Positions 43,903 through 57,340 of a stretch of 64,000 bases of DNA are shown one piece after another. Each line of letters starts with the position of its first letter. Within the stretch, counting starts at the first letter, position 1. The notes beneath the pieces were generated by a model. That model saw only the letters and a list, made by a program, of their open reading frames with translations, did no database searches and had not been told where the DNA came from. This DNA comes from Stenotrophobium rhamnosiphilum. Its GTDB lineage: Bacteria > Pseudomonadota > Gammaproteobacteria > Nevskiales > Nevskiaceae. The stretch is from the NCBI RefSeq assembly GCF_003052265.1, contig NZ_QANS01000007.1:1-64000 (forward strand). The letters are read 5' to 3'. Made by a program: the position numbers and the translations under genes.

Positions 43903-45267
43903 TCAATGACCTGCTTGTTGTGCGGCGGCTGGCGAGAACTGCGCCGGATTCATTGGCGTGTTGAGGCGCCACCAGCTTGTACTCTCGTTGACCAGATAGC
44001 CTGCTTCATACGCGCCTGAAGTCAGATCGTGATAAACCGATGCGCCACGATTCCAGCTCTTTGATTCCTGCGAGTAGAAATAAGTGATCAGCGAGATGCG
44101 CCACAGCTTGCCGCGGCCATCGTAGTTGTCGGCCATTAGAGCAAGCCAGCTATCTTCATCCGCGTACATCACGCGCTTGGCGTAGATGTGACGAACGCCG
44201 GATTTCAGCGTGCCTTCCAGAACCCATACGCGGCGCAGTTCATAGCGCACGTAATCGGGGTTGATGGTGCCGGGCTTGATCAAATCCTTGTACTTCACAG
44301 CTGGATCGTTGGTGCGGAAGTTGTTGTACGGCAGATAAAGTTCTTTCTTGCCGACGAGTTTCCAGGTGTAGCGCTCTGGAGAGCCGTTGAAGCCGTAGTC
44401 ATCATCCACCGTGCGCAAGCCTGCAGGTGGCACCGGATAATCAAAGCCTACTTCTGGTGCTTGGCGCACGCGACGAGTGCCCGGCAAATATTGCCAAGAC
44501 ATCGTGCCTTCTTTGGCAAAGTTGTTCGGCTGATAACCGACAGCGATAAAACCTTTGTCACGTTCTGGCAGCAGATAGCCTGAGTAGAAGTGCGAGTTGA
44601 TGCGATCGGTGTACTGCGCGGGCTTCTTCAAATCATTCGTGGCTGTGAGCACTTGGAATTTGTTGCGACCCCAAGCGATGGTGCCGTTGCCGTAGACATC
44701 GGCAATGTCGCAGATTGCAGATTGCGTCCACGTACGACCAGCGTTGGCTACGTTCCAGATTGCTTCAAGGCCGCTCTGCGGAAACGGAAAAGGAATGCCG
44801 CCGCCGGTGCCGGTGACGCCACGACCATCGTCAATGACTTCGGAAGTCACCGCGTTTTTCTTGGTGCGATCGCAGATGACGTCGTAATCCTTGAAGTCGC
44901 GATGCGATGGATAGACATCCATGCGATAGCCTTTCGGATATTTGATGAAAAGCGCTTTCTGTCCGTCCGTGAGTTTGCTCGCGTACTTCGACATGTTCTC
45001 TGCGGTGATCGAGAACAGTGGCTTTTCAGCAGCGTAAGGACCGGGGTCATAGCCGTAAGGGTTCTTCACGCCCGGCCAAGTGCCAACATATTTTCCGGTG
45101 TATTCCGGAATGCCGGTGGCTGAGCCTGCGCGTTCGGCGCCGATGCAGGTGTACTTGGGGCCATCAAGTTCTGCGGCTTTTTCAGCCGAGACTTTGGCGC
45201 TGGCCTGATGGCTGACAAGTAAGACGGCAAGTGCTGCAGTGCCGGTGAGTAGCGAGCTGAATTTCAT
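43903..45267 (-). CDS. DUF1329 domain periplasmic protein
   Basis: 454 residues with a Sec signal peptide (cleavage near SHQASAKVS). The body contains the DUF1329 landmarks PSHRDFKDYDVICDRT, GGIPFPFPQSGLEAIWN, WQYLPGTRRVRQAPEVGFD and ELRRVWVLEGTLKSGVRH. These proteins have a LolB-like beta-barrel half-shell fold and usually pair with DUF1302. Here it is the last gene of a TetR-DUF1302-DUF1329 arm. Probably carries a hydrophobic ligand across the periplasm. Confidence 0.88.
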   Translation of the reverse strand: MKFSSLLTGTAALAVLLVSHQASAKVSAEKAAELDGPKYTCIGAERAGSATGIPEYTGKYVGTWPGVKNPYGYDPGPYAAEKPLFSITAENMSKYASKLTDGQKALFIKYPKGYRMDVYPSHRDFKDYDVICDRTKKNAVTSEVIDDGRGVTGTGGGIPFPFPQSGLEAIWNVANAGRTWTQSAICDIADVYGNGTIAWGRNKFQVLTATNDLKKPAQYTDRINSHFYSGYLLPERDKGFIAVGYQPNNFAKEGTMSWQYLPGTRRVRQAPEVGFDYPVPPAGLRTVDDDYGFNGSPERYTWKLVGKKELYLPYNNFRTNDPAVKYKDLIKPGTINPDYVRYELRRVWVLEGTLKSGVRHIYAKRVMYADEDSWLALMADNYDGRGKLWRISLITYFYSQESKSWNRGASVYHDLTSGAYEAGYLVNESTSWWRLNTPMNPAQFSPAAAQQAGH

Positions 45268-45345: not shown

Positions 45346-47193
45346 TTAGATCGAATACTTGATGTTGATCGCAATGTTGTCGCGATCTGCATAAGGATTT
45401 TGTTTCAGGAAACTATCGCCAATATTCTTTCCGGGGTCGCCGAAGAATTTGTTATAGCCAACGCCGATCTGCAGATTCTGCAGATACTGGAAGTTGGCCA
45501 TCACGCTCAGACGCATATCACCTTCGCCATAGAGCGCACCAAAGGCGCCCGGGATTGAAGGATTGCCTTTGACCAGCCAGCCGAATGTGATCGGCGTGGA
45601 CATGTCCCAGCCACCGACGATGTTGCGCTTGGTGGGAATGGCGAGCAGTTGAAATGCGTAGGCGGTGCGGTCGTAGAACAAGGTGTTGCCTTCGCCAACC
45701 GGAACGATGCCCGGCTGCGCGCCAAACTTTTCTGCGCTGAGTACACGCAGATAACCTGCTTCGCCGACCAGTGCCAGATCATCAAACCAGAGATGTGGGT
45801 TGGCGGCGTAGATCGCCGATGTCTGCGCGGATATCGTATTGCCGCGCGAGAACACCGGATTGACCGTGCCCAGTTCCAGCGCCTGCACGGCAATCGCTGC
45901 GCCATTGCGATAGCTGACTTCACCCGCGACGTTGAACGGACCCAAGACGGTGGAGAAGCTTGTCGACAACATCCTGATGCCGTCGAAGTGTTTCACCTGA
46001 TAGTAGTCCGGTGTCGGTTCATTGAAGACTTGCGTCGTCAGCGGAACGCCGGCCAGATCACCAATCACTGGGAAACCGGAGTGCTGTTTAACCGATGGAT
46101 TTGGGTCGTGATAACGCAAGGCGTAGAAGCCCAGCGTTGTCGATGGTGTGACTTGATACTTGAGGCCGAGGCCGTATTGGCCGAAGCGGCTGGTCGGCAG
46201 CTTGCCTTTGTATGGAATGTTGATGGTGCGTGGCGCGTTGAAGATCGGTCCGCCAAGGCCAAAGCCTAGCTGACATAGATCAACAGGGCCGAGTAGTCCC
46301 GGGCAGCTTTTTAACTCCAGTGGATTGAGTGAGCCGTAGGAGAATTCTGCGCCCGGGCCAACGCTGTCGGTAGGCGAAAGAAAATCGCCGACTGGAAAGA
46401 TTTCATTGGGCTTGAACGCAAACTTGTAATAGCCCATCACGCTCCAATCTGTGCCGATGGCCAGATTGAACGAGACCTGCGGTGTTGGCAGCAAAATCTG
46501 TTTGATCTCGACGCCGGGCGTGAATGCCTTGGTGGCATCGGCCGTTGACTGTGCGCTGGACACGCCGGGGAAGAACAGACTTTCACCCCAAGCCACCATC
46601 TGATTGCCGGCACGCACATCTAGCAGTAGATCATCGTTAATGGTCCAGTTGCCGTAGAGATAAGCGTCGAGCAAGCGTGCGCGACCGCCGTCGTAACGAC
46701 GCGCGCCAGCGCTGAACTCGTTGTGTGGGCCGGTCTTGTTGACGGTGTCCGGTGAGTCGTTGGCATTTCCGCGGTGATAGACAAAGTCGTAGAAGCCATC
46801 GCCAGCAATCACGGCACCATAGTTTTCATAGCTGAAGTGCAATTCAGCCAGCGTGCTTAGGCGATTATTGGTGAGATCGTATTTTCTGAAGTTGCGATTG
46901 CCGTCGTCTTGATTGACGGTGGTGGAGAGGCCGGTGTGCGTGAAACCAGCACCAGCTGCAGCCTGTTCCAGATGCAATTCAAAAGGATCGAGCGGGCCAT
47001 TGATCAGACGTTCGTCTGGATCTTTCAATCGCATGCCAAGACCGTAGTTCAAGGTTAGCTTGAATTCAGTCTTGAGATCACCGAGCTCCATCGAGCCGGC
47101 GTGTGCTGCGCAAGGTAGTACAACTGCCCCGATTGCCATTGCACACCCAAGAATCTGATGCGCAAAATCCCTTCTGCGAATACGCGTTCTCAT
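45346..47193 (-). CDS. DUF1302 family outer-membrane protein
   Basis: 615 residues from ATG 47193, preceded by GGAGAG. Signal peptide ends near AAHAGS. The rest is a likely outer-membrane barrel, with alternating strands and a short C-terminal strand ending NIAINIKYSI. DUF1302 proteins work with DUF1329 and are found beside hydrocarbon and steroid catabolic genes; they are thought to help hydrophobic substrates cross the outer membrane. Gene order places it 78 bases upstream of the DUF1329 gene. Confidence 0.85.
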   Translation of the reverse strand: MRTRIRRRDFAHQILGCAMAIGAVVLPCAAHAGSMELGDLKTEFKLTLNYGLGMRLKDPDERLINGPLDPFELHLEQAAAGAGFTHTGLSTTVNQDDGNRNFRKYDLTNNRLSTLAELHFSYENYGAVIAGDGFYDFVYHRGNANDSPDTVNKTGPHNEFSAGARRYDGGRARLLDAYLYGNWTINDDLLLDVRAGNQMVAWGESLFFPGVSSAQSTADATKAFTPGVEIKQILLPTPQVSFNLAIGTDWSVMGYYKFAFKPNEIFPVGDFLSPTDSVGPGAEFSYGSLNPLELKSCPGLLGPVDLCQLGFGLGGPIFNAPRTINIPYKGKLPTSRFGQYGLGLKYQVTPSTTLGFYALRYHDPNPSVKQHSGFPVIGDLAGVPLTTQVFNEPTPDYYQVKHFDGIRMLSTSFSTVLGPFNVAGEVSYRNGAAIAVQALELGTVNPVFSRGNTISAQTSAIYAANPHLWFDDLALVGEAGYLRVLSAEKFGAQPGIVPVGEGNTLFYDRTAYAFQLLAIPTKRNIVGGWDMSTPITFGWLVKGNPSIPGAFGALYGEGDMRLSVMANFQYLQNLQIGVGYNKFFGDPGKNIGDSFLKQNPYADRDNIAINIKYSI

Positions 47194-47312
47194 CTTCTCT
47201 CTCCTTTGCTGCATGTGCACTTTGTCGTGCTTATATAGCCCTCTTTTCGAGGTGCCCTTTTACTTCACAGCAGCAGCTTTCGCTGCTCCCCACATATTTT
47301 GTTTGGTAAAGA

Positions 47313-48104
47313 TCAGCTTGGTTTCTTATCCAGTGCTCTGATGCGTTTAATTGTTTTATCGCTCAAGCCAGCGCCATCAGGCGACAGCAACTTCGCAGCC
47401 ATTTCTGGTTTGCAGAACAGGCGAATGAAATCAGCTTGTATGCCGAGGACGACGGATTCGTGTGTGGCCTTCATGCCGTCCATCACCCAGTTGGCGAGTC
47501 GTGTTTGTTGCAGTGCGAGCAACATGCGGCCTTGATGCTCTACAGGCGCGGGACTGAAAAAGCCTTGGCTGATGCCCCAGGTAAACAATGTTTTGAGCAC
47601 GAGCAAACCGCGGTCCCACATCACCTGCTCTTCGCGCGTGGGTTGCGCGGCTTGGTGATACCAAGCATGGCCTTCCTGCAGTTGCATACGCAGATAGTTG
47701 GGATGTTGTAATAAGAAGTGTAAGTGCGTTTCATTGAAGAAAAGTACTTCTTCTATAGTAGACGGCGCCTGCAGCGAATCCTGCCCTTTGGCGAGGACGG
47801 CATTGAGCATCTGGCTGTCGCGTGCGATCAAAAGGCTGCGATGTAAATCAGACTTACCTGGATAGGAAAGGTACAGGCGGCCCAGCGAAATTCCGGCTTC
47901 CGACGCGATGTCCTGCATCTTGGCGTTGTTGAAGCCCTGCTCAGCAAAAATGCGTTCAGCCACTTCCATGATGTGCTCTTTATAGAGCGCGTCTTTTGCG
48001 TCTTGAAGCGTCTTGGCGCGTGGGGCGCGGCCGCGTCCCAGCTTGACCGCTGAGAGCGGTTTGCTGTCGATGATGCCGCGCTTCTTTGTTACTGCTTTAT
48101 TCAT
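47313..48104 (-). CDS. TetR family transcriptional regulator
   Basis: 263 residues, somewhat long. The N-terminal helix-turn-helix is VAERIFAEQGFNNAKMQDIASEAGISLGRLYLSYPGKSDL (about residues 47-86). An N-terminal basic extension precedes it (KKRGIIDSKPLSAVKLGRGR). The ligand-binding part is helical. It is divergent from the sterol-type operon and upstream of DUF1302/1329, so it may control both arms, probably as a repressor released by a sterol-like ligand. Confidence 0.9.
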   Translation of the reverse strand: MNKAVTKKRGIIDSKPLSAVKLGRGRAPRAKTLQDAKDALYKEHIMEVAERIFAEQGFNNAKMQDIASEAGISLGRLYLSYPGKSDLHRSLLIARDSQMLNAVLAKGQDSLQAPSTIEEVLFFNETHLHFLLQHPNYLRMQLQEGHAWYHQAAQPTREEQVMWDRGLLVLKTLFTWGISQGFFSPAPVEHQGRMLLALQQTRLANWVMDGMKATHESVVLGIQADFIRLFCKPEMAAKLLSPDGAGLSDKTIKRIRALDKKPS

Positions 48105-48189: not shown

Positions 48190-48219
48190 AATGCAAGCGA
48201 GGCCGTGAGGGCGGCCAAC

Positions 48220-49827
48220 GTGACCAGCCAACAGAATCAATACGATTACATCGTGGTCGGCGGCGGCTCTGCGGGCAGCATCGTGGCTGCGCGCCTGGCA
48301 GAGGAAGGCGCGGGTTCTGTATTGCTGCTGGAGTGTGGCGATGCTGGGGACAAGCATCCTGAAACGCTGACCGAAGATGGCTTCAAGTACGCCTTTGCCA
48401 ACGATGATCTGATGTTCCATCGCATGAGCGCGCCGCAGGAAGGCTGCGGTGGCCGCAAACTGTTTCTCGGAACTGGCCGTGGCATGGGCGGTAGTGGCGC
48501 AGTCAATGGCATGGTCTACACACGCGGTGATAAGCGTGATTTTGAGCGCTGGCCAAAGGGCTGGCACTACGACGATCTGGTTCCACACTTCGAAGCAGTG
48601 GAGAAGCGCATCGGCATCCGCCCACGCGTGCCGACGCCTTTCGCGCAGCGTTTTATTGATGCATCGGTGTCCGCCGGCTTTACGCGCAAGGACGGCATGA
48701 ACGATGGCGAGCTCGGCGGTGTTGTCGGCTGTAATGACATGAACTATGACGAGAGTGGTCGTCGTAGTTCTTATCGTGCATGGCTGCATGAACGTCAGGT
48801 GCCGAATCTGCAGATTGTCACCAACGCATCGGTGCGTCGTTTAGTTTTTGGCGATAGCCAGCGCGCCGTGGGTGTTGAATGCGAGATTGAAGGACAGATC
48901 AAAACGTTCGACGTCAGCAAGGAAGTTGTGCTGTGCGCAGGCGCGCTGGAAACACCAAAGATCTTGATGCTCTCCGGCGTAGGGCCGCGTCAGGAAATCG
49001 AGGCACAGCGCATTCGTCTGATCAAAGATATTCCTGGCGTTGGCCAACATCTGCATGATCATCCCAATGTCTGCGTGTTCTATCGCGCAGAGCAGCCAGT
49101 GGATTTCAAATATCCGCAACTCTATGGCTTTGATGCAGCGCGTCGCCCAGCGCATGCGCAAACCAATGAGGCCCCGGATACCTGTTTTGTCTGCTTCGCA
49201 GCGCCGGGAACCTTGCATCAGTCGATGCATCGCATGGTGCCGCTGATTGCGTTGCCGGGGCCGTTGTACAAGCTCGGATTCTTGCGCAGCTTCTATCGCG
49301 TGTTGATTGATCTGGCGTTCAAACTGCCGTGGCTGCAACGCTACGTCTCAACGGTGTTTGGCATCGTCGTGATTCTTGGCAAACCGGATTCACGCGGCAG
49401 CATCGGTCTTAACTCGGCAGACCCAGCTGCGCCCGCACGCATCGACCCGGCTTATTTCAAATCGCCGCGTGATCGCGAGACGCTGCTTGCTGGTATTGCC
49501 AAGGCGAGACAGATCGCCGAGCAGCCAGCGCTGGCACAGGCGGGAGCCAAACCACTATCGCTGGGTGGCACGAACGCGTCAGAAGAAAAAATCTGGAAGT
49601 GGGCAACAGCAGCAACGATGACCACGTTCCACTTCTGCGGCAGCTGCCGCATGGGTGATGACGTGGACAGCCCAGTCGATACAAAACTCAGAGTCAAAGG
49701 TCTGCGCAATGTGCGTGTGGCGGATGCGTCAGTGATGCCGGAGATTCCGGTGTCTGCGCTTAACGCTCCCAGCATGATGATTGGTTATCGCGCGGCAAAC
49801 TTTATATTGGAAGGAAAATCTTCATGA
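48220..49827 (+). CDS. GMC family FAD-dependent oxidoreductase
   Basis: 535 residues from GTG 48220, with GAGGG 8 bases upstream (GTG 48205 is an alternative). Rossmann FAD motif VVGGGSAG (12-19), GMC signature LGTGRGMGGSGAVNGMVY, and the C-terminal catalytic pair His471 in TFHFCGSCRMG and Asn515 in SALNAPSMMIGYRAA. GMC enzymes oxidise alcohols to aldehydes or ketones; cholesterol oxidases belong here. First gene of the plus-strand operon; its stop overlaps the ALDH start by four bases. It could oxidise a C-4 hydroxymethyl or a 3-hydroxy group of a sterol. Confidence 0.9.
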   Translation: MTSQQNQYDYIVVGGGSAGSIVAARLAEEGAGSVLLLECGDAGDKHPETLTEDGFKYAFANDDLMFHRMSAPQEGCGGRKLFLGTGRGMGGSGAVNGMVYTRGDKRDFERWPKGWHYDDLVPHFEAVEKRIGIRPRVPTPFAQRFIDASVSAGFTRKDGMNDGELGGVVGCNDMNYDESGRRSSYRAWLHERQVPNLQIVTNASVRRLVFGDSQRAVGVECEIEGQIKTFDVSKEVVLCAGALETPKILMLSGVGPRQEIEAQRIRLIKDIPGVGQHLHDHPNVCVFYRAEQPVDFKYPQLYGFDAARRPAHAQTNEAPDTCFVCFAAPGTLHQSMHRMVPLIALPGPLYKLGFLRSFYRVLIDLAFKLPWLQRYVSTVFGIVVILGKPDSRGSIGLNSADPAAPARIDPAYFKSPRDRETLLAGIAKARQIAEQPALAQAGAKPLSLGGTNASEEKIWKWATAATMTTFHFCGSCRMGDDVDSPVDTKLRVKGLRNVRVADASVMPEIPVSALNAPSMMIGYRAANFILEGKSS

Positions 49828-51410
49828 GCGCATCACTACATATCCACACGCCGCAGCCAACCGAAATCGAATGTCTAAATCCTGCAACGGGCGCGCGCCT
49901 TGGTAGCGTGCACGCATCAAGTCCGGATGAAGTGAAAGCGATTGTCGAACGCGCGCGCATCGCACAGAAAAAGTGGGGGCAGAGCACGTTCGCGCAGCGT
50001 CGTGCAGTGCTGCAGAACATCATTGATCTTACGCTCGCAAACATCGATGAGATTTGCGAAGCCGTCGTGCAAGACAGTGGCAAGACTTACGAGAACGCCA
50101 TCCTTGGCGAAGTCATGCCGGTCTGCAACAAGACCAAATGGGTGATCAAGAACGGCGAGAAGTTTCTCAAGCCTGAGAAGGTTCCGTCAGGCTTGTTGAT
50201 GCACAAGGCAGGTCGCATTGAATATCGTCCGCTTGGCGTCGTCGCTTGCATCGTGCCTTGGAACTATCCATTCCAGAACGTCTTCGGTTCAATTGCTGCG
50301 CCCTTGATGGCAGGCAACGCGGTGCTGGTCAAAGCTTCGGAAGCTGTGGCTTGGTCAACGCAGCTGTTCCAGAACATTATTGATAAGGCGCTGGCTAAAG
50401 AAGGTTTCTCTGCTGATACCGTTCAGATCATCAATGGCTACGGCGACACGGGCGCTGCGCTTGTGCGTAGCGGCGTGCAGAAGATTCTGTTTATTGGTTC
50501 GGTCGGAAATGGTCGTCGCATCATCGAAGGTAGCGCGCAACATCTGACTCCTGTGATCATGGAGCTGGGTGGTAAAGACCCGATGATTGTTTGTGAAGAC
50601 GCCGATTTGCAGCAGGCCGTGCACTCAGCTTTGGGTGGCTGCTTCATCAATCTCGGACAGAACTGCATTGCCTCCGAGCGCATCATTGTTCTTGATGCGG
50701 TCTACGACAAATTTGTCGCTGAAATTTCAAAACTTACCGGCAATCTGCGTCAAGGCGCTCCGACCAAGCCCGGTGATTTTGATGTTGGCGCTGTTTGCTC
50801 GCCATTGCAGATCAAGGTGATCGACACGCTGGTATCGGATGCGCTGGCGAACGGTGCGAAGGCACTCGTCGGTGGCGTGCTGCCAAAAGGTCCGGGCAAC
50901 TTTTATCCACCGACGATTCTCGTCAACGTAACGCCAGATATGCGCATTGCGCGTGAAGAAGTATTTGGCCCAGTGATGTTAATCATGCGCGTGCCGAATG
51001 ATGCGGCTGCGATTGCTCTGGCGAATAACAGTGAATTCGGTTTGCAGTCATCCGTGATGACTAAGGATCGCGCACGTGGCGAGCGCATTGCAGATGCGCT
51101 GGAAGCGGGTGGTACCTGCATCAACGACTTCGGTATGTGCTATCTGAATCAGGATCTGCCTTTTGGCGGTGTGAAGTATTCCGGCTTCGGCCGCATGAAT
51201 GGCCGCGATGGCTTGCGTGCATACACCAACGCGAAGGCCGTGTTGACTGATCGTTTCGGATTCAGCGTTCCACCGAAACTTTATCCAGTCGGCCCGAGTG
51301 TCTACGCCAATGCGCACGCCAGTATTCGCATGCTCTACGCCAGCAGTTGGACTGACAGGCTCGCCAGTCTGTGGACGCTGATCCGACTCTCAATGAAATC
51401 CAAAGGATAG
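49824..51410 (+). CDS. NAD(P)-dependent aldehyde dehydrogenase
   Basis: 528 residues, a full ALDH. The catalytic Cys281 in GQNCIASERIIV, the general base Glu247 in VIMELGGKDPMIV and PWNYPF (145-150) are present. It has a C-terminal extension with hydrophobic residues (VYANAHASIRMLYASSWTDRLASL). Plants and animals have membrane-anchored fatty-aldehyde dehydrogenases with similar tails. Translationally coupled to the GMC gene, so it probably takes the GMC product to an acid. Confidence 0.92.
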   Translation: MSASLHIHTPQPTEIECLNPATGARLGSVHASSPDEVKAIVERARIAQKKWGQSTFAQRRAVLQNIIDLTLANIDEICEAVVQDSGKTYENAILGEVMPVCNKTKWVIKNGEKFLKPEKVPSGLLMHKAGRIEYRPLGVVACIVPWNYPFQNVFGSIAAPLMAGNAVLVKASEAVAWSTQLFQNIIDKALAKEGFSADTVQIINGYGDTGAALVRSGVQKILFIGSVGNGRRIIEGSAQHLTPVIMELGGKDPMIVCEDADLQQAVHSALGGCFINLGQNCIASERIIVLDAVYDKFVAEISKLTGNLRQGAPTKPGDFDVGAVCSPLQIKVIDTLVSDALANGAKALVGGVLPKGPGNFYPPTILVNVTPDMRIAREEVFGPVMLIMRVPNDAAAIALANNSEFGLQSSVMTKDRARGERIADALEAGGTCINDFGMCYLNQDLPFGGVKYSGFGRMNGRDGLRAYTNAKAVLTDRFGFSVPPKLYPVGPSVYANAHASIRMLYASSWTDRLASLWTLIRLSMKSKG

Positions 51411-51414
51411 TTTT

Positions 51415-52077
51415 ATGGACGCCACATTTTTTATTTGCTGGGGTGCAATCCTCGCGTTTGACGGCTTGTTAATGCAGGCATTGGATTGGCCGGCATTTGC
51501 ACGCTACCGCATTCGTACCTCGCCCACGCCGCAAATTCCGCTGATGCGTCGTCGCGTCAATACAGGACTTAATAACGTTCTGTCGCTGCTGATCTTCGCC
51601 TCGTTCTTTTACTTCCTTGGCGAAACGTCAATGGTCGCCGGTTGGCCAGGCTTCACCACCTTCTTTGGCGAAGTGCTGTGCGTGTTGTTGCTGTACGACT
51701 TCATGTATTACTTCTTCCATCGCTTTATGCACATTCGCAAAGTAATGCGTTTTTGCCACGCGGTGCATCATCGCGTGCGTTTCCCAACGGCCAGCGAGAG
51801 CATCTTCTTGCACCCGCTTGAGAACATTGGTGGACTCGGCTTGTTGATTCTGGCTATCGTCATTATTGGGCCGATCAGCACCTTCTCGTTCTTGGCGATC
51901 TTTGCGATTCATTCGTCGATCAACTTGATCGTGCATTCCAATCTGATCATTCCGCACCCGTCGTTCCGTCTGTTCAACTTCTGGGTTGAGAAGCACGACG
52001 TGCATCATCACAAAGCTAGAAATAACTATGCCTCGATCTTCCCGTTCTGGGATCAGGCCTTCGGCACTGCCGAATAA
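51415..52077 (+). CDS. Sterol desaturase/C-4 methyl oxidase family protein (di-iron)
   Basis: 220 residues, membrane-bound (hydrophobic segments about 10-20, 55-70, 85-101, 140-170). Histidine boxes: H102RFMH106, H115AVHH119, H133 in LHPLE and H194DVHHH199. The pattern FHRFMH, HAVHHR..PTA, FLHPLE, KHDVHHHK, FWDQAFGT recalls sterol C-4 methyl oxidase (ERG25/SMO) and related desaturases. It lies four bases after the ALDH gene. Substrate is inferred from context: it would hydroxylate a C-4 methyl group. Confidence 0.85.
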   Translation: MDATFFICWGAILAFDGLLMQALDWPAFARYRIRTSPTPQIPLMRRRVNTGLNNVLSLLIFASFFYFLGETSMVAGWPGFTTFFGEVLCVLLLYDFMYYFFHRFMHIRKVMRFCHAVHHRVRFPTASESIFLHPLENIGGLGLLILAIVIIGPISTFSFLAIFAIHSSINLIVHSNLIIPHPSFRLFNFWVEKHDVHHHKARNNYASIFPFWDQAFGTAE

Positions 52078-52103
52078 AACGAATAAAGAGAGGAGAGCAC
52101 ACA

Positions 52104-53129
52104 ATGAAAAGAAAAATTCTGGTCACTGGCGGATTGGGTTTTGTCGGTCGCGCATTAGTTGATCGCTTTGCTGATGACGGCCATGACGTCACCTGCATGG
52201 ACATGGGCAAGGGCGGTTATCGCAGCGATGTAAAATTTGTACAGATCGACATTCGCAATGCTAAGGCTGTGTATGAAGCGCTCAAGGGCTTCGACAGCGT
52301 TATTCACAACGCCTCGCTCGTTCACACCAAGCAGAACCGTATTGAAGATGTGTGGGCCGTGAATCTGACCGGCACCGAGAACATCATGAAGGCCTGCGGT
52401 GATCTGGGCGTTCAGCGTCTCGTCTACATCAGTTCCGGCAGTGCGGTTTACGAAGGAAAAGATATTGAGAACGGCGATGAAACTTTGCCCTACTGCAGTG
52501 TCTCACAAGCGCCTTATGCGGATAGCAAAATCGCCGCCGAGAAAGCTGTTCTCGCTTTCAATGGCAAAACCAAAACACTCACCTGTGCGATTCGTCCTCA
52601 TGTGATCTTTGGCGCAGGTGACAATCGCTTTATTCCGTCGATCATGCAGAAGGCCAAGGCGGGCAAGTTGACTCGCGCAGTGGGTGATCGTGACAAGTTG
52701 TCTGACTTCACATACATCACCAACTTGATTGATGCTGTGGTTGCTGCAGAAGATCGTCTGGTGCCGGGATCAGCGGTCAATGGTCAGGCTTACTTCGTAA
52801 CCAATGGAGAACCGATCGCCTTCTTCGACTTCATCGAAGATTTCATTGTCGAGATGGGCTATCCAAAGATCACCGGTAAGGTGCCGTATTGGCTTGCATA
52901 CTCTGTCGCCGCGATTGCTGAAGGCATCGACACACTGAAGGGCGGAACGCTGAATGCAGAAGACGGCATGACGCGCTTCGCGATCAAGTACATGGTCACG
53001 CATCATTACTTCAATATTGCCAAAGCCAAACGTGATCTGGATTGGACGCCGAAGGTTTCGCTGAAGGAAGGCATCAAGCTGACGCTTGCTGAACTCGCCA
53101 AGCAATCCAACACTGCAAAAGCGGCGTAG
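52104..53129 (+). CDS. NSDHL/ERG26-like 3-beta-hydroxysteroid dehydrogenase/C-4 decarboxylase
   Basis: 341 residues, extended SDR. NAD-binding motif TGGLGFVG (8-15); catalytic Tyr138 and Lys142 in APYADSK. The segments IRPHVIFGAGD (163-173), DFTYITN (201-207) and GQAYFVTNGEP (227-237) match the eukaryotic 3-beta-HSD/D family (NSDHL, ERG26, plant 3bHSD/D) as recalled. That enzyme oxidises the 3-hydroxyl and decarboxylates the 4-carboxysterol. It follows the methyl-oxidase-like gene by 26 bases, as a C-4 demethylation pair would. Confidence 0.85.
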   Translation: MKRKILVTGGLGFVGRALVDRFADDGHDVTCMDMGKGGYRSDVKFVQIDIRNAKAVYEALKGFDSVIHNASLVHTKQNRIEDVWAVNLTGTENIMKACGDLGVQRLVYISSGSAVYEGKDIENGDETLPYCSVSQAPYADSKIAAEKAVLAFNGKTKTLTCAIRPHVIFGAGDNRFIPSIMQKAKAGKLTRAVGDRDKLSDFTYITNLIDAVVAAEDRLVPGSAVNGQAYFVTNGEPIAFFDFIEDFIVEMGYPKITGKVPYWLAYSVAAIAEGIDTLKGGTLNAEDGMTRFAIKYMVTHHYFNIAKAKRDLDWTPKVSLKEGIKLTLAELAKQSNTAKAA

Positions 53130-53137
53130 GAGAAGAC

Positions 53138-54832
53138 ATGAACGCACCAACTACCATCAAGCCGCAGCAAGGAAGCGCACCGCCGAAGGCGAAGGGCGGC
53201 TTGCCGTGGATTGGGCAGATGTTCAATTTCGCGGCCAACCCCTACAAGTTTATGGAGAAGGTCGCCACGACGACCGGTGAAATTGCTTCCTTCACCATGC
53301 TCGGACAGAACATTGTTCTGTTGACGGGCGATGAAGCCAGCGAAGTGTTCTATCGTTCTACTGATGATCAACTCGACCAGTCAGCGGCATACAAGCTGAT
53401 GACGCCGATTTTCGGGCCAGGCATCATTTTTGATGCGCCAAACGATCGCAAGAACGAACAGCTCAAAATGCTGATGCCGGCGCTGCGCATGGAAGCCATG
53501 CGCGACCACTCGCACAAGATCGTGCAAGAAGTCGAAGACATCATCGCGAATTGGGGTGACAGCGGCGAAATTGAACTGGTCGAGTTCATGAAGCAGCTCA
53601 CCATCAACACCGCTAGTCACTGCTTGCTTGGCCGTGAGTTTCGTTACGAGCTAAGCGAAGAGTTCGCGCACATTTATCACGACCTTGAGCAGGGCGTGAA
53701 TCCACTGGCGTATAACTTTCCTAATCTTCCGATTCCTAAGTTCAAACGCCGCGATCGCGCACGCGTTCGTTTGCAGGAACTAGTCGGCGCTATCGTCAAA
53801 AAGCGTACCGCGCAGACCGAGAAGCCCAGCGATCTTTTCCAGTCGCTGATCGATATGCGTTATGCGGACGGCACCAAGCTCGACGATAACGAAATCACCG
53901 GCATGCTGATCGGGGCGATTTTTGCCGGACACCACACGAGCTCCGGTACGGCAGCGTGGGTGTTGCTGGAGCTGTTGAAGGACCGTTCCTTACTGCGCAA
54001 GACGCAGGCTGAATTGGACGCGATCCTTGGCGAGAACGGCGAAGTCAGCTTCAACAGCGTACGCGAGATGAATATTCTCGAGAACGTGCTGAAGGAAGTG
54101 CTGCGCTTACACCCGCCGCTGATCGTGCTGATGCGCAAGGTTTCGCAAGATCTACAGTTCAAGAATTACACGATCAAGGCTGGCGATATGGTCTGGGCGA
54201 GTCCGCCGGTCACCCATCGCCTGTCGCGTCTGTTCACGAATCCCTTGAAGTTTGATCCGGATCGTTTCTCGCCAGAGCGCAAGGAAGACAAGAACCTGAT
54301 GGCCTACCAGCCTTTTGGTGGCGGTCGTCATAAGTGCTCAGGCAATGCCTTCGCGATGTTCCAGATCAAGGCAATTTTCGCCGTGTTGCTGCGTCGCTAC
54401 GACTTTGAGTTGATGGCGCCGCCAGAAACTTACGTCGACGACTACACGCAGATGATCGTGCAGCCGAAGTCGCCTTCCAAGATTCGTTATCGCATGCGTA
54501 AAGACCATGCGCATCCGATGCGTGGCGCAGGCGCCACCGATGCTGCGTCAGTGGCGGAAGCTATTGCAGGTGGTTGTCCTTTTCATGCGGCCGCGGCTAA
54601 GGCAGCAGCGCCAGCGGAAGCGCCGAAACCAAAAGTTTTCAAGGTGGTGGTGGATCGCGGTCTTTGTCAGGGGCATGCGATGTGCATGGGTGAAGCGCCT
54701 GAGACTTTCCATGTGGATAGCAATAACAATCTGGAAATCCGCAAGCCGGAAATCAAAGCAGAAGAAATGGAGAAGGTTGAACAGGCTGTGAAGTTCTGCC
54801 CCAACTCTGCATTGAAGATCGTGCACGAGTAA
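53138..54832 (+). CDS. cyp51: CYP51-like cytochrome P450 fused to a ferredoxin
   Basis: 564 residues. The P450 part (about 1-455) has the CYP51 B'-region YKLMTPIFGPGIIFD (85-99), I-helix AGHHTSSGT (263-271), ExxR EVLR (320-323) and heme Cys400 in FGGGRHKCSG. A linker follows, Ala/Pro-rich. The C-terminal ferredoxin (about 500-564) has CxxHxxC (Cys510, His513, Cys516) and Cys554-Pro, a [3Fe-4S]-type P450 partner motif. CYP51 with a fused ferredoxin is known from Methylococcus capsulatus and removes the sterol 14-alpha-methyl group. It lies eight bases after the NSDHL-like gene. Confidence 0.93.
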   Translation: MNAPTTIKPQQGSAPPKAKGGLPWIGQMFNFAANPYKFMEKVATTTGEIASFTMLGQNIVLLTGDEASEVFYRSTDDQLDQSAAYKLMTPIFGPGIIFDAPNDRKNEQLKMLMPALRMEAMRDHSHKIVQEVEDIIANWGDSGEIELVEFMKQLTINTASHCLLGREFRYELSEEFAHIYHDLEQGVNPLAYNFPNLPIPKFKRRDRARVRLQELVGAIVKKRTAQTEKPSDLFQSLIDMRYADGTKLDDNEITGMLIGAIFAGHHTSSGTAAWVLLELLKDRSLLRKTQAELDAILGENGEVSFNSVREMNILENVLKEVLRLHPPLIVLMRKVSQDLQFKNYTIKAGDMVWASPPVTHRLSRLFTNPLKFDPDRFSPERKEDKNLMAYQPFGGGRHKCSGNAFAMFQIKAIFAVLLRRYDFELMAPPETYVDDYTQMIVQPKSPSKIRYRMRKDHAHPMRGAGATDAASVAEAIAGGCPFHAAAAKAAAPAEAPKPKVFKVVVDRGLCQGHAMCMGEAPETFHVDSNNNLEIRKPEIKAEEMEKVEQAVKFCPNSALKIVHE

Positions 54833-54839
54833 GGCGCGC

Positions 54840-55868
54840 ATGAAAGTTTTTATTACCGGGGCAACAGGATTCGTTGGCGCGCATACCGCGCTGACCTTGC
54901 TGAAGGCGGGCCATCAAGTGCGTTTGCTGGTGCGTAACGAAGATGCCGCGCGCAAGTACTTTGCGGAACATGGGTTTGTCGTCGATGATTTTTTGGTGGC
55001 GGATATCCGTGACGAAGAAAAGATTCGTCCTGCGATGAAAGGCTGCGATGCCGTGCTGCACGCCGCCGCCATCGTTGCGCTCGATCCTGCGCGCGCGCAG
55101 GAAACATACGACAACAATGTTCAGGGCATGAAGGCCGTGATCGGCAGTGCTTGCGATCTGGGTATTCGCAATATCATTTATGTCTCTAGCCTCAGCGCCT
55201 TGTTCTGGCCTGATCTGCTCACAACCAATGAAGACACTCCGCTAGCGCCCTGCAAGGAGCCTTATTCACGTTCCAAGCGTGATAGCGATGAATATGTGCG
55301 CACGCTGCAAGCTAAAGGCCATCCGGTTCAGATCACTTACCCGAGTGCAGTCGTCGGACCGAATGATCCCAAGCTCAGCGAAGCCAATCACGGCCTGATC
55401 GCCTTTATTACGAAAGGCTTTCCGATGACGACCAGCGGATTCCAAGCGATTGATGTGCGTGATCTGGCAGAGGCGCATCGTTATCTGTTGGAGCATCCGC
55501 CGCAGTCTGATTTTGAAAAGAGCCGTTACATCATCGGCGGCCACTACTACCCGTGGAAAATCTTCCGCGAGAAATTGGAAACCGGCCTTGGCCGTCGCGT
55601 CCTCGCATTCCATTCGCCAGCCGCAGCGCTGCGTGGTATGGGCGCGGCAGTCGACGCGCTACAGAAAGTGATCAAGTTCAAGACGCAGGTTTCTGCAGAG
55701 GCGATGTCGTTTGTCACGCAATGGTCGCCTGCGGATTCCAGCAAGTACCTTAACCATTCCGGCCTCAAATTCCGTGATGGCGCAGAAACATTTGCCGATG
55801 CTTTCAAGTGGATGGCCAAGGCGGGCCATCTGCCGAGTCGCGATAACAAGCGACTCAACAACACATAA
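54840..55868 (+). CDS. NAD(P)-dependent extended SDR (epimerase/dihydroflavonol-reductase-like)
   Basis: 342 residues. Rossmann motif TGATGFVG (6-13), catalytic Tyr142 and Lys146 in PYSRSK, then YPSAVVGPNDP. It is a distant relative of the NSDHL-like enzyme two genes upstream, not a close copy. It could be a 3-ketoreductase or another sterol dehydrogenase. Starts seven bases after the P450 gene. Confidence 0.85.
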   Translation: MKVFITGATGFVGAHTALTLLKAGHQVRLLVRNEDAARKYFAEHGFVVDDFLVADIRDEEKIRPAMKGCDAVLHAAAIVALDPARAQETYDNNVQGMKAVIGSACDLGIRNIIYVSSLSALFWPDLLTTNEDTPLAPCKEPYSRSKRDSDEYVRTLQAKGHPVQITYPSAVVGPNDPKLSEANHGLIAFITKGFPMTTSGFQAIDVRDLAEAHRYLLEHPPQSDFEKSRYIIGGHYYPWKIFREKLETGLGRRVLAFHSPAAALRGMGAAVDALQKVIKFKTQVSAEAMSFVTQWSPADSSKYLNHSGLKFRDGAETFADAFKWMAKAGHLPSRDNKRLNNT

Positions 55869-55902
55869 CCATTTCACAACAATCATAAAAGGGAGAACTC
55901 AC

Positions 55903-56541
55903 ATGCCTGCACGTCGCGCACCTTCGATTGCACCACCGAATCAGTCTTATCCACGCGCTGAGTTGGAAGCGATGGTTGAAAAATGGCTGGAAGCCAATAT
56001 CGCTTCTGAGCGTGAAGGCGATTGGAGTAAGCATCTCAGTGAGATGTATACCGAAGACGCGATTTACTCTTGGAACATTGGGCCTGAACAAGAATTTGTC
56101 GCCAACGGTCGCAAAGAGATTCACGACGTTGCGATTGGCTATCAGATGAAAGGTTTTGAAGGTTGGGAATATCCCTACCACGACATCATCATCGACGAGA
56201 AGCGTGGCACGGTGATTGGCTTCTGGCGTCAGGTGTCACCGGTCAAACGCAAAGATGGTTCATTCATCGCAATTGAAGGCATTGGTGGTTCCTGGTTTGA
56301 ATACGGCGGCAACTATCAGTGGAAATGGCAGCGCGATTTCTTTGATATGGGTAATGCCAAAGACACCTTCTTCCAGCTTGCCGGTGCTGGCGCGTTGTCG
56401 CCAATCGTTAAAGAAAAAATTCATCGCATGGCCAAGGGCGAGATGTTGCCGGGCCACCGCAAGCTGCATCCTGATCTGACGCTCTGGGAAAAAACACGCA
56501 ACGCCTTCGCGATTGTGAAAATCGCGATTGCTGGCAAGTAA
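55903..56541 (+). CDS. NTF2/SnoaL-like fold protein
   Basis: 212 residues from ATG 55903, with GGGAGAA upstream. The centre has the NTF2-like pattern: LEANIASEREGDWSKHLSEMYTEDAIYSW and GRKEIHDVAIGYQ, followed by VIGFWRQVSPVKRKDGS and IGGSWFEYGGNYQWKWQRDFFD. SnoaL-like folds include steroid delta-isomerases and hydratases. No catalytic residues can be assigned. It lies between two enzymes of the operon. Confidence 0.7.
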   Translation: MPARRAPSIAPPNQSYPRAELEAMVEKWLEANIASEREGDWSKHLSEMYTEDAIYSWNIGPEQEFVANGRKEIHDVAIGYQMKGFEGWEYPYHDIIIDEKRGTVIGFWRQVSPVKRKDGSFIAIEGIGGSWFEYGGNYQWKWQRDFFDMGNAKDTFFQLAGAGALSPIVKEKIHRMAKGEMLPGHRKLHPDLTLWEKTRNAFAIVKIAIAGK

Positions 56542-56551
56542 GGCCGCACGC

Positions 56552-57340
56552 ATGAGCAGCAGCCTGTTTTCGAGTAACCCGGATAAAGCCTGGGTCGAGA
56601 AATTCTTCCTGATCTACTCGCCGATCTGGATGGCGTCGATGGGGTTTCAGGTCTTCGTCGATGCGAGCAATCGCTGGAGCGATAGCGCGTTGCTGGCCTA
56701 CAGTTTCACCGTAGCGATTCTGCCGCTCTTGATCCCAATGCTGCTCGCACCGCGCTTCACGACCAAATCTTGGTACGACAGCTACTGGTTCAAAGCCTAT
56801 CTGTATCTGGCGGTGTTCCAGTTTTTCGGCAGCTATTTCGGCAGCGAGTATTTCTTCGATGTGCTGGGCATGGTCTATAGCTATCCGACTGTCACGACTA
56901 CGCTTGATTCGGCGTTGGTGGGCAGCGGTAAGCAAACCGTGCCGCTGATCATGTACCCGTGGGCGCAGGTGTTCTTCTTGACCTATCACGCGACTGCGAA
57001 CATTGCATTGCGCGCGCTGCGACGTCTCGGTGGCGGCTATGTGGTTTTTGCGATCAGCGTTTTCGTGATCGGCTATTTCTGGGCGTGGATGGAAACCAAG
57101 TCGATGGCCAATCCAATGTTGGCGACGACGTTCTATTACCAGAAGCTCGAGATCATGTTGAAGTATGGCTCGGCAATTTACGCAACGTATTTCATTGCTA
57201 GTTTCCCGATCTATTACTTCATCGACGAGACGCGTGAAAAGACGTGGACTTGGTGGCAAGTCGTCGCTGGTGGCTTAAGTGCCAGCATGTTGACGCTTTA
57301 TATGCTCGACATTGCGGCGAAGTGGGTGGGATCGCTGTAA
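56552..57340 (+). CDS. Cycloeucalenol cycloisomerase-like (cyclopropylsterol isomerase) membrane protein
   Basis: 262 residues, about six hydrophobic segments. Recalled plant CPI1 (280 residues) shares NPxKxWxExFFLxYxPxW (here residues 9-26), YWxKAxLxxxVFxxxGxYFxxxYFFxVLGxxYxxP (78-112), YHxxxNIxLRxLR (145-157), ExxxxAN (181-187) and YAxYFIxSFPxxxxxDE (210-226). CPI opens the 9,19-cyclopropane ring of cycloeucalenol to give obtusifoliol, the CYP51 substrate in plants. Last gene of the operon; it ends exactly where the next, opposing gene ends. Few bacterial members are known to me. Confidence 0.8.
   Translation: MSSSLFSSNPDKAWVEKFFLIYSPIWMASMGFQVFVDASNRWSDSALLAYSFTVAILPLLIPMLLAPRFTTKSWYDSYWFKAYLYLAVFQFFGSYFGSEYFFDVLGMVYSYPTVTTTLDSALVGSGKQTVPLIMYPWAQVFFLTYHATANIALRALRRLGGGYVVFAISVFVIGYFWAWMETKSMANPMLATTFYYQKLEIMLKYGSAIYATYFIASFPIYYFIDETREKTWTWWQVVAGGLSASMLTLYMLDIAAKWVGSL

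Follow-up and report, generated by a model that had tools for sequence, protein, structure and literature searches.

What would a bacterium without a recognisable sterol cyclase do with enzymes that resemble those with which eukaryotes strip methyl groups from sterol carbon 4? This question is raised by a stretch of DNA from the gammaproteobacterium Stenotrophobium rhamnosiphilum (Nevskiaceae; assembly GCF_003052265.1, contig NZ_QANS01000007.1, positions 1 to 64,000 of the forward strand), the whole 64,000 nucleotides of which we call the window. A preliminary description had pointed to a histidine-box enzyme of the methyl-oxidase type, followed after 26 bases by a short-chain dehydrogenase/reductase (SDR) like NSDHL and ERG26, and had read the two as a eukaryote-like pair for sterol C-4 demethylation, perhaps gained from a eukaryote. 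Both open reading frames (ORFs) were found on the plus strand at 51415-52077 and 52104-53129, 26 bases apart. In our analysis the pair proved sound while its frame changed: it is probably part of an operon for catabolic demethylation, as a bacterial pair of its own that resembles sterol methyl oxidase (SMO) and NSDHL, and not a eukaryotic gain. We give a probability of roughly 0.6 to the reading that the gene run at 48205-57340 is an operon which prepares imported sterols bearing 4- and 14-methyl groups for catabolism, perhaps along with 9,19-cyclopropyl sterols of the cycloartenol type.

The pair lies in the middle of a same-strand run of eight genes, in which neighbours are spaced between a 4-base overlap and a 34-base gap. 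The run was read from the ORF map, with two starts chosen manually, and comprises in order:

48205..49827, plus strand: GMC-family oxidoreductase (start GTG; PF00732 and PF05199 matches), which would oxidise the 4-hydroxymethyl alcohol.
49824..51410, plus strand: aldehyde dehydrogenase (ALDH; PF00171, 435.5 bits), which by gene order and chemistry would convert the 4-aldehyde to the acid.
51415..52077, plus strand: SMO-like di-iron hydroxylase of the FA_hydroxylase superfamily (PF04116; 220 amino acids, aa), the proposed C-4 methyl hydroxylase.
52104..53129, plus strand: NSDHL-like SDR (SDR1; PF01073; 341 aa), the proposed 3-beta-hydroxy-4-carboxysterol dehydrogenase (decarboxylating).
53138..54832, plus strand: CYP51 with C-terminal ferredoxin, sterol 14-alpha-demethylase (PDB 6mcw match; Fer4 domains).
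54840..55868, plus strand: second extended SDR (SDR2), HpnA/SdmB-like, possibly a 3-ketoreductase or another sterol SDR.
55903..56541, plus strand: SnoaL/NTF2-like protein, homologue of 8,14-Bsr (six pocket residues match; start codon chosen manually).
56552..57340, plus strand: membrane protein resembling the cycloeucalenol cycloisomerase of plants (CPI1), a putative cyclopropyl-sterol isomerase (ATG chosen manually).

The hydroxylase scored 86.8 bits with the Pfam family PF04116 FA_hydroxylase (cut-off 31), and the boxes HX3H, HX2HH and HX2HH were invariant in 10/10 aligned rows (the window and nine orthologues), in agreement with the enzyme type first described. Its profile was compared with a panel of ten family members; these sequences, like the comparators NSDHL, ERG26, HSD3B1 and CPI1 used below, were unverified reference copies. 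MSMO1 scored highest with 81.5 bits, followed by ERG25 (53.1), SUR2 (51.7), AtSMO1 (46.7), CH25H (41.8), SC5D (34.3), ERG3 (33.5), AGMO (25.7), STE1 (8.5) and the carotenoid hydroxylase CrtZ (0.8). MSMO1 was also the top BLAST match in this panel for all 15 orthologues from the clusters. Moreover, the motif [NS][YF]AS.F past the last histidine box, which was chosen post hoc, occurred in 3/3 SMOs of the panel, 14/15 cluster rows and the hydroxylase of locus L076, and in none of the seven other panel rows or 16 other bacterial rows. In both trees the 15 cluster hydroxylases formed one clade (support 91/93 in the first, 93/92 in the second), and together with six other bacterial rows they were split from the eukaryotic sterol oxidases (98/99 and 92/88). 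For these trees the ORFs of L007 and L075, which were over-extended, had been trimmed to their C-terminal 225 and 226 residues, and six long-branched rows were removed for the second tree and the approximately unbiased (AU) tests reported below. It is likely from these comparisons that the hydroxylase works like an SMO. A second hydroxylase group, consisting of L083 (G009), L084 (G015), L085 (G014) and L086 (G012), scored 103-119 bits with MSMO1 or AtSMO1 and is nearer to the eukaryotic SMOs of the panel than the operon's own hydroxylase. No other operon gene adjoined these hydroxylases in the surroundings scanned (L102, L103, L105), the one exception being a TetR match in L105, weak at 41.6 bits.

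SDR1 matched PF01073 3Beta_HSD with 191.6 bits (Pfam cut-off 22), and Y138 and K142 of its YxxxK motif were invariant in 10 rows. Human NSDHL was its nearest solved relative, both in a sequence search of the PDB (5.3e-43, next chain 1.4e-18) and in a profile search (1e-51 vs 7.7e-23). Against the reference copies the profile gave 246 bits with NSDHL, 183 with ERG26 and 96 with HSD3B1. A grouping of the di-iron protein with carotenoid or fatty-acid hydroxylases and of the SDR with non-steroid epimerases, named beforehand as the opposite outcome, did not appear: CrtZ stood last in the panel, and among solved SDRs none is as close to SDR1 as NSDHL. In the SDR tree, which contained the L007 SDR twice, the SDRs of the clusters formed a clade separate from that of the two eukaryotic NSDHL sequences, with the OleD-like rows apart. 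Among the 398 genomes of an even phylum sample, 17 held SDR1 relatives at E <= 1e-45. Two of these scored 663-667 bits (the window's own genome and Zavarzinia) and 15 at most 240 bits; four of the weaker ones were scanned and had OleD-type models as their best matches, two of them over the cut-off.

The resemblance to SMO and NSDHL could be taken for the trace of a recent transfer of hydroxylase and SDR from a eukaryote, the more so as CPI is known from plants and some protists (PMC8172173). However, the cluster hydroxylases and SDRs stand in clades apart from eukaryotic SMO and NSDHL, represented in the trees by only a few unverified copies, and they occur across alpha- and gammaproteobacteria as well as in one Polyangia metagenome-assembled genome (MAG). 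We therefore found no support for a recent gain and regard this origin as highly unlikely.

The argument for a joint function of hydroxylase and SDR1 comes from their linkage across genomes. A CYP51 protein scan of named bacterial genomes yielded 19 loci, whose hosts are Zavarzinia, Spongiibacter, Ketobacter, Stagnimonas, Oceanococcus, several other gammaproteobacterial MAGs, one Methylothermaceae and one Polyangia MAG. Counts of cyclase, KshA, hydroxylase, SdmA and HsaC refer to a set of 19 genomes, namely those of 18 of the 19 CYP51 loci (the L008 genome was left out) and the window's own. In the neighbourhood scans matches of at least 100 bits were listed, and for CYP51, SnoaL and CPI1 in the scan of the hydroxylase neighbourhoods of the CYP51-bearing genomes also those below 100. 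A hydroxylase orthologue (E <= 1e-40) was present in 16/19 CYP51-bearing genomes, own included, and adjoined an NSDHL-like SDR in 15 of these 16; in G014 the two are separated by a contig end, and in G007 they are divergent on a 3.2-kb contig. The order GMC-ALDH-hydroxylase-SDR was found in 14 loci, among them G012, in which the GMC gene is cut by a contig end. Across the phylum sample the orthologue occurred in 2/398 genomes, the window's own and Zavarzinia marina. With shared genomes removed, it was found in 14/17 CYP51-bearing genomes vs 0/396 of the phylum (Fisher p 1.8e-23, a guide only, because related genomes are not independent). The pairing of hydroxylase and SDR exceeds chance. In plasmid searches the SDRs that matched were all distant (35% identity at best), and the hydroxylase had just two weak matches.

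Within the family Nevskiaceae the hydroxylase orthologue was found in 5/58 genomes, one of which is the Stagnimonas genome behind L016. The whole gene set was present in G416. G458 had the hydroxylase, SDR1, CYP51 and the CPI1-like gene and no GMC, ALDH or Bsr homologue at >=100 bits, and G461 had ALDH, hydroxylase and SDR1 and no GMC or CYP51 within its 20-kb stretch. Hydroxylase and SDR1, which stay together in G458 where GMC and ALDH are missing and in G461 where GMC is missing, are thus the core of the block.

Downstream of the pair, the CYP51-ferredoxin matched PDB 6mcw, a CYP51, with 3.7e-187; the match spans residues 12-562 of 564 and so takes in the ferredoxin, to which Pfam assigned Fer4 domains. 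At two MAG loci the CYP51 match is split into two frames (L016 near 11400, L024 near 10470), as by a frameshift or an assembly error. In the NTF2-like protein, which matched SnoaL_2 of Pfam weakly and below cut-off, residues Y49, Y55, Y90, Y92, D145 and D148 correspond at a constant offset of +12 to Y37, Y43, Y78, Y80, D133 and D136 of Methylococcus capsulatus 8,14-Bsr, pocket residues that were tested in PMC13277303. The correspondence was made by numbering, the M. capsulatus sequence itself being unaligned. All six were invariant in 15/15 rows (L014 and L017 were left out of this alignment). A Bsr homologue was downstream of CYP51 in 16/18 loci and absent at L013 and L023. The membrane protein had no match in Pfam or NCBIfam, and it aligned to an unverified copy of Arabidopsis CPI1 with E 5e-36 and 32% identity over 267 aa. 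A CPI1-like gene lies downstream of CYP51 in 17/17 loci with enough flank, two of these being partial matches (L010, L014, L018 and L024 were left out of the CPI1 alignment). The region 54840-55868, earlier named as a 3-ketoreductase candidate, does encode an extended SDR; its best NCBIfam models were HpnA (153 bits) and then SdmB (98 bits), both below cut-off, and SDR2 stood beside CYP51 in 7/19 loci only. In the other 12 loci CYP51 has no such neighbour, and SDR2 is therefore not an obligatory partner.

Do these genes serve the synthesis or the degradation of sterols? No PF13243 squalene/oxidosqualene cyclase match was found in the window's own genome, which is 99.71% complete, nor in 16 of the 18 related genomes. 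The enzyme set does resemble the post-cyclase part of a biosynthetic pathway, and de novo synthesis with an unrecognised cyclase could also draw on the PF13243 proteins of G007 and G011 and on one SE-family match over the cut-off in the own genome (24.1 vs 20.1 bits). However, that match covers only 78 of 276 positions, and Escherichia coli and Caulobacter score in the same search. Together with the cyclase counts this makes a biosynthetic role very improbable.

Genes for steroid degradation were common in the same genomes. A KshA-family match (E <= 1e-50) was found in 14/19 CYP51-bearing genomes vs 7/398 of the phylum, or 12/17 vs 5/396 without shared genomes (p 8.3e-16, to be read as above). 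An HsaC-like dioxygenase (E <= 1e-30) was found in 15/19 genomes, not in G003, G007, G011 and G012. The own-genome KshA has 3-ketosteroid 9-alpha-hydroxylase as its best PDB match (1.4e-60) and adjoins a protein matching 3-ketosteroid delta4-5alpha-dehydrogenase (1.2e-108). The own HsaC-like gene lies in a cluster with an FAD-binding protein, a CoA-transferase pair identified by eye, the lipid-transfer protein PRK06059, a FabK-like protein below cut-off, the enoyl-CoA hydratase PRK07938, acyl-CoA dehydrogenases and the thiolase PRK07801; the three PRK models were all over cut-off. This cluster resembles the HIP gene set of PMC5380842, with a gene-by-gene equivalence that is in part presumed. 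The two regions of the own genome are:

L143 (contig C16, ~447-464 kb): HIP-type cluster.
L091/L092 (contig C18): KshA/dehydrogenase cluster.

By its gene content S. rhamnosiphilum is likely a steroid degrader, and the lack of a cyclase together with the steroid-degradation genes favours catabolism over synthesis. Scavenged sterols might also be demethylated for use in the membrane and not as food; Methylococcus and other sterol makers do employ CYP51 and 8,14-Bsr (PMC13277303). Yet KshA, HsaC-like and HIP-type genes occur in the own genome and most relatives, and one contig holds the block, KshA and the HsaC-like gene in Ketobacter sp. G008 (within ~71 kb) and in G018 (within ~64 kb). We judge membrane remodelling to be distinctly improbable.

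The Rieske oxygenase SdmA, on which bacterial C-4 demethylation has been described to rely, exceeded its cut-off of 600 bits in none of the 19 genomes; the own best score was 57 bits, and G007 alone came near with 555. Of the eukaryote-like C-4 demethylation pair originally proposed, a pair of hydroxylase and NSDHL-type SDR, distinct from SdmA and likely acting as a C-4 demethylase, is upheld, while orthology of the hydroxylase to SMO is more than the trees support. The Polyangia MAG G007 (L076, L110, L027) combines cyclases, the near-cut-off SdmA and the divergent hydroxylase/NSDHL-like pair, and both C-4 solutions may be present in this one sterol maker.

Several results weigh against the reading as a catabolic C-4 demethylation operon. 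CYP51 is present without a hydroxylase orthologue at 1e-40 in G004, G011 and G013, and the two cyclase-bearing genomes, G007 (Polyangia) and G011 (Methylothermaceae), both carry this CYP51. The HsaC-like matches were all below the curated cut-off (own 268 bits vs 450). The likeness of SDR1 to NSDHL and ERG26, which held for the nearest solved relative, is qualified in two ways: the best NCBIfam match was OleD (254.5 bits, far under the cut-off of 580), and the cluster SDRs joined the two eukaryotic NSDHL sequences weakly (81/55). Fold searches with the models of the hydroxylase (predicted local distance difference test, pLDDT, 87.8) and of the CPI1-like protein (pLDDT 79.0) returned no PDB match at E <= 0.001, which speaks neither for nor against it; PDB sequence searches with both families gave chance-level matches or none. 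The identity of the hydroxylase to the SMOs of the panel is ~25-34%. Lastly, AU tests decided neither for the SMO nor for the C-5 desaturase side in its deep placement: the larger bacterial clade gave p 0.146 with SMO, 0.464 with C-5 desaturases and 0.564 with SMO, CH25H and four other bacterial rows. SMO orthology goes beyond the data because of this result. A first AU test joining the cluster to SMO (p 9e-47) was ill-posed, as it also excluded the nearest bacterial rows of the cluster, and was replaced by these fairer tests.

This deep placement, the steroid-degrading gene content and the presence of GMC and ALDH as an alcohol-to-acid pair would also suit an oxidation of the sterol side chain, in which the hydroxylase would act on a terminal methyl group, GMC and ALDH would lead to the acid, and the SDR would be a ring-A 3-beta-hydroxysteroid dehydrogenase. 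The higher profile scores of the SDR with NSDHL and ERG26 than with HSD3B1 speak against such a role, as do the retention of the hydroxylase-SDR pair in G458 without GMC and ALDH and the company of CYP51, an enzyme for methylated sterols, with which the block travels. Side-chain oxidation is unlikely on balance.

For the catabolic operon that we prefer, the following sequence of reactions is proposed. The presence of the genes is observed, and every catalytic step in Stenotrophobium rhamnosiphilum is one that we infer. Substrates would be sterols imported from outside; CYP51 acts on 14-alpha-methyl sterols, and the CPI1-like protein suggests that cyclopropyl sterols are among them. This protein would open the cyclopropane ring. 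Strong homology indicates that CYP51-ferredoxin would remove the 14-alpha-methyl group, and from the residue match the 8,14-Bsr homologue would reduce and shift the resulting diene. Homology and conserved linkage suggest that the di-iron hydroxylase would oxidise a C-4 methyl group and that GMC and ALDH would carry the C-4 alcohol to the carboxylate. In eukaryotes SMO alone completes the oxidation of the C-4 methyl group to the acid. On the same grounds SDR1 would oxidise the 3-hydroxyl, and the beta-keto acid would lose CO2 to give a 3-ketone, which would enter ring degradation via enzymes encoded elsewhere in the genome. Since degradation wants the 3-ketone, no ketoreductase would be needed for 4-monomethyl sterols. 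4,4-dimethyl sterols would require reduction between rounds, for which SDR2 could serve where present.

Upstream of the run lie three genes on the minus strand:

47313..48104, minus strand: TetR-type regulator, transcribed divergently from the run (NCBIfam matches to several TetR-family models, none reaching its cut-off).
45346..47220, minus strand: DUF1302 protein (PF06980, 440 bits), probably for outer-membrane uptake of a hydrophobic substrate.
43903..45267, minus strand: DUF1329 protein, partner of DUF1302 (PF07044, 375 bits).

A TetR homologue divergent from GMC was also found in the Zavarzinia, Stagnimonas and Oceanococcus loci, and the DUF1329/DUF1302 order is the same in Stagnimonas L016. 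DUF1302 proteins presumably take up hydrophobic substrates across the outer membrane; a DUF1329/DUF1302 pair, identified by eye, is also near the own-genome KshA. In Oceanococcus G017 (L096, 11713-16271) a DUF1302 gene comes after the block, together with a large gene that by eye is like RND/MMPL transporters and may encode a sterol importer. The ALDH at 49824-51410 also matched the NCBIfam model aldehy_Rv0768, with 228 bits and thus short of its cut-off (775). Rv0768 is located near CYP51 in mycobacteria, and a similar relay may exist there.

Bacterial C-4 demethylation has been described via SdmA with SdmB or SdmC in sterol makers, and E. salina was reported to be without homologues of the three eukaryotic C-4 enzymes (PMC10202945). 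At loose thresholds ERG25 and ERG26 homologues were found in some myxobacteria (PMC4919349), and such homologues in sterol makers are therefore not new. CYP51-ferredoxin with 8,14-Bsr was described in sterol makers and degraders, with alpha- and gammaproteobacteria named, and lanosterol modification by mycobacteria was raised in the same study (PMC13277303). A term search of a review of bacterial steroid degradation (PMC6678751) gave no match to CYP51, C-4 methyl or demethyl-, and within our literature search, which covered listings and passages of mostly open-access work, no paper reported that bacteria demethylate C-4 when they catabolise sterols.

Our broadest proposal is tentative, and we hold it at slightly less than even. 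It states that sterol degraders among the alpha- and gammaproteobacteria carry a dedicated front end, in which a C-4 demethylase of new composition (hydroxylase, GMC, ALDH and NSDHL-type decarboxylase) is joined to CYP51-ferredoxin, to a reductase for 8,14-sterols and to a cyclopropyl-sterol isomerase of bacterial type. Sterols of the cycloartenol, lanosterol and 4-methyl kinds, as made by plants, algae and fungi, would thereby become degradable, and the presence of CYP51 in bacteria without sterol synthesis would have a reason. If true, the hydroxylase/NSDHL-type system of cyclase-less bacteria would be a separate C-4 solution put to catabolic use, and CYP51 and 8,14-Bsr would gain a testable role in sterol-degrading bacteria, a question left open by PMC13277303. 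It would explain why some bacteria making no sterols keep a sterol demethylase: the methylated sterols of other organisms would become food. Bacteria consuming methylated and cyclopropyl sterols would be predicted, with consequences for what becomes of sterols in soil and water.

Compared with known systems, the pair shares with eukaryotic C-4 demethylation (SMO/ERG25, NSDHL/ERG26, ERG27) a di-iron hydroxylase with three histidine boxes beside an NSDHL-like SDR. It differs in its own bacterial clades, the short hydroxylase of 220 aa, the linked GMC and ALDH and a genome without a cyclase. Besides, no ERG27 was identified at the locus, the rest of the genome not having been searched for ERG27-type SDRs. 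With SdmA/SdmB and SdmC (PMC10202945) it has in common the proposed removal of a C-4 methyl group in bacteria and an SDR as the decarboxylating partner, whereas the Rieske oxygenase itself is replaced by the di-iron enzyme. OleD, a 2-alkyl-3-oxoalkanoate reductase, is the nearest NCBIfam model of SDR1 and would share with NSDHL a similar beta-hydroxy/beta-keto acid chemistry, but SDR1 falls far short of its cut-off and true OleD-like proteins form another clade. The CYP51-ferredoxin fusion adjoining an 8,14-Bsr homologue is the arrangement described for methanotrophs, Mycobacteriales and myxobacteria (PMC13277303); here it is joined to the C-4 block and a CPI1-like gene, and the figures of that paper may show such loci. 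Plant CPI1, finally, is matched at 32% identity by a protein that here is bacterial, stands beside CYP51 and has a putative isomerase activity.

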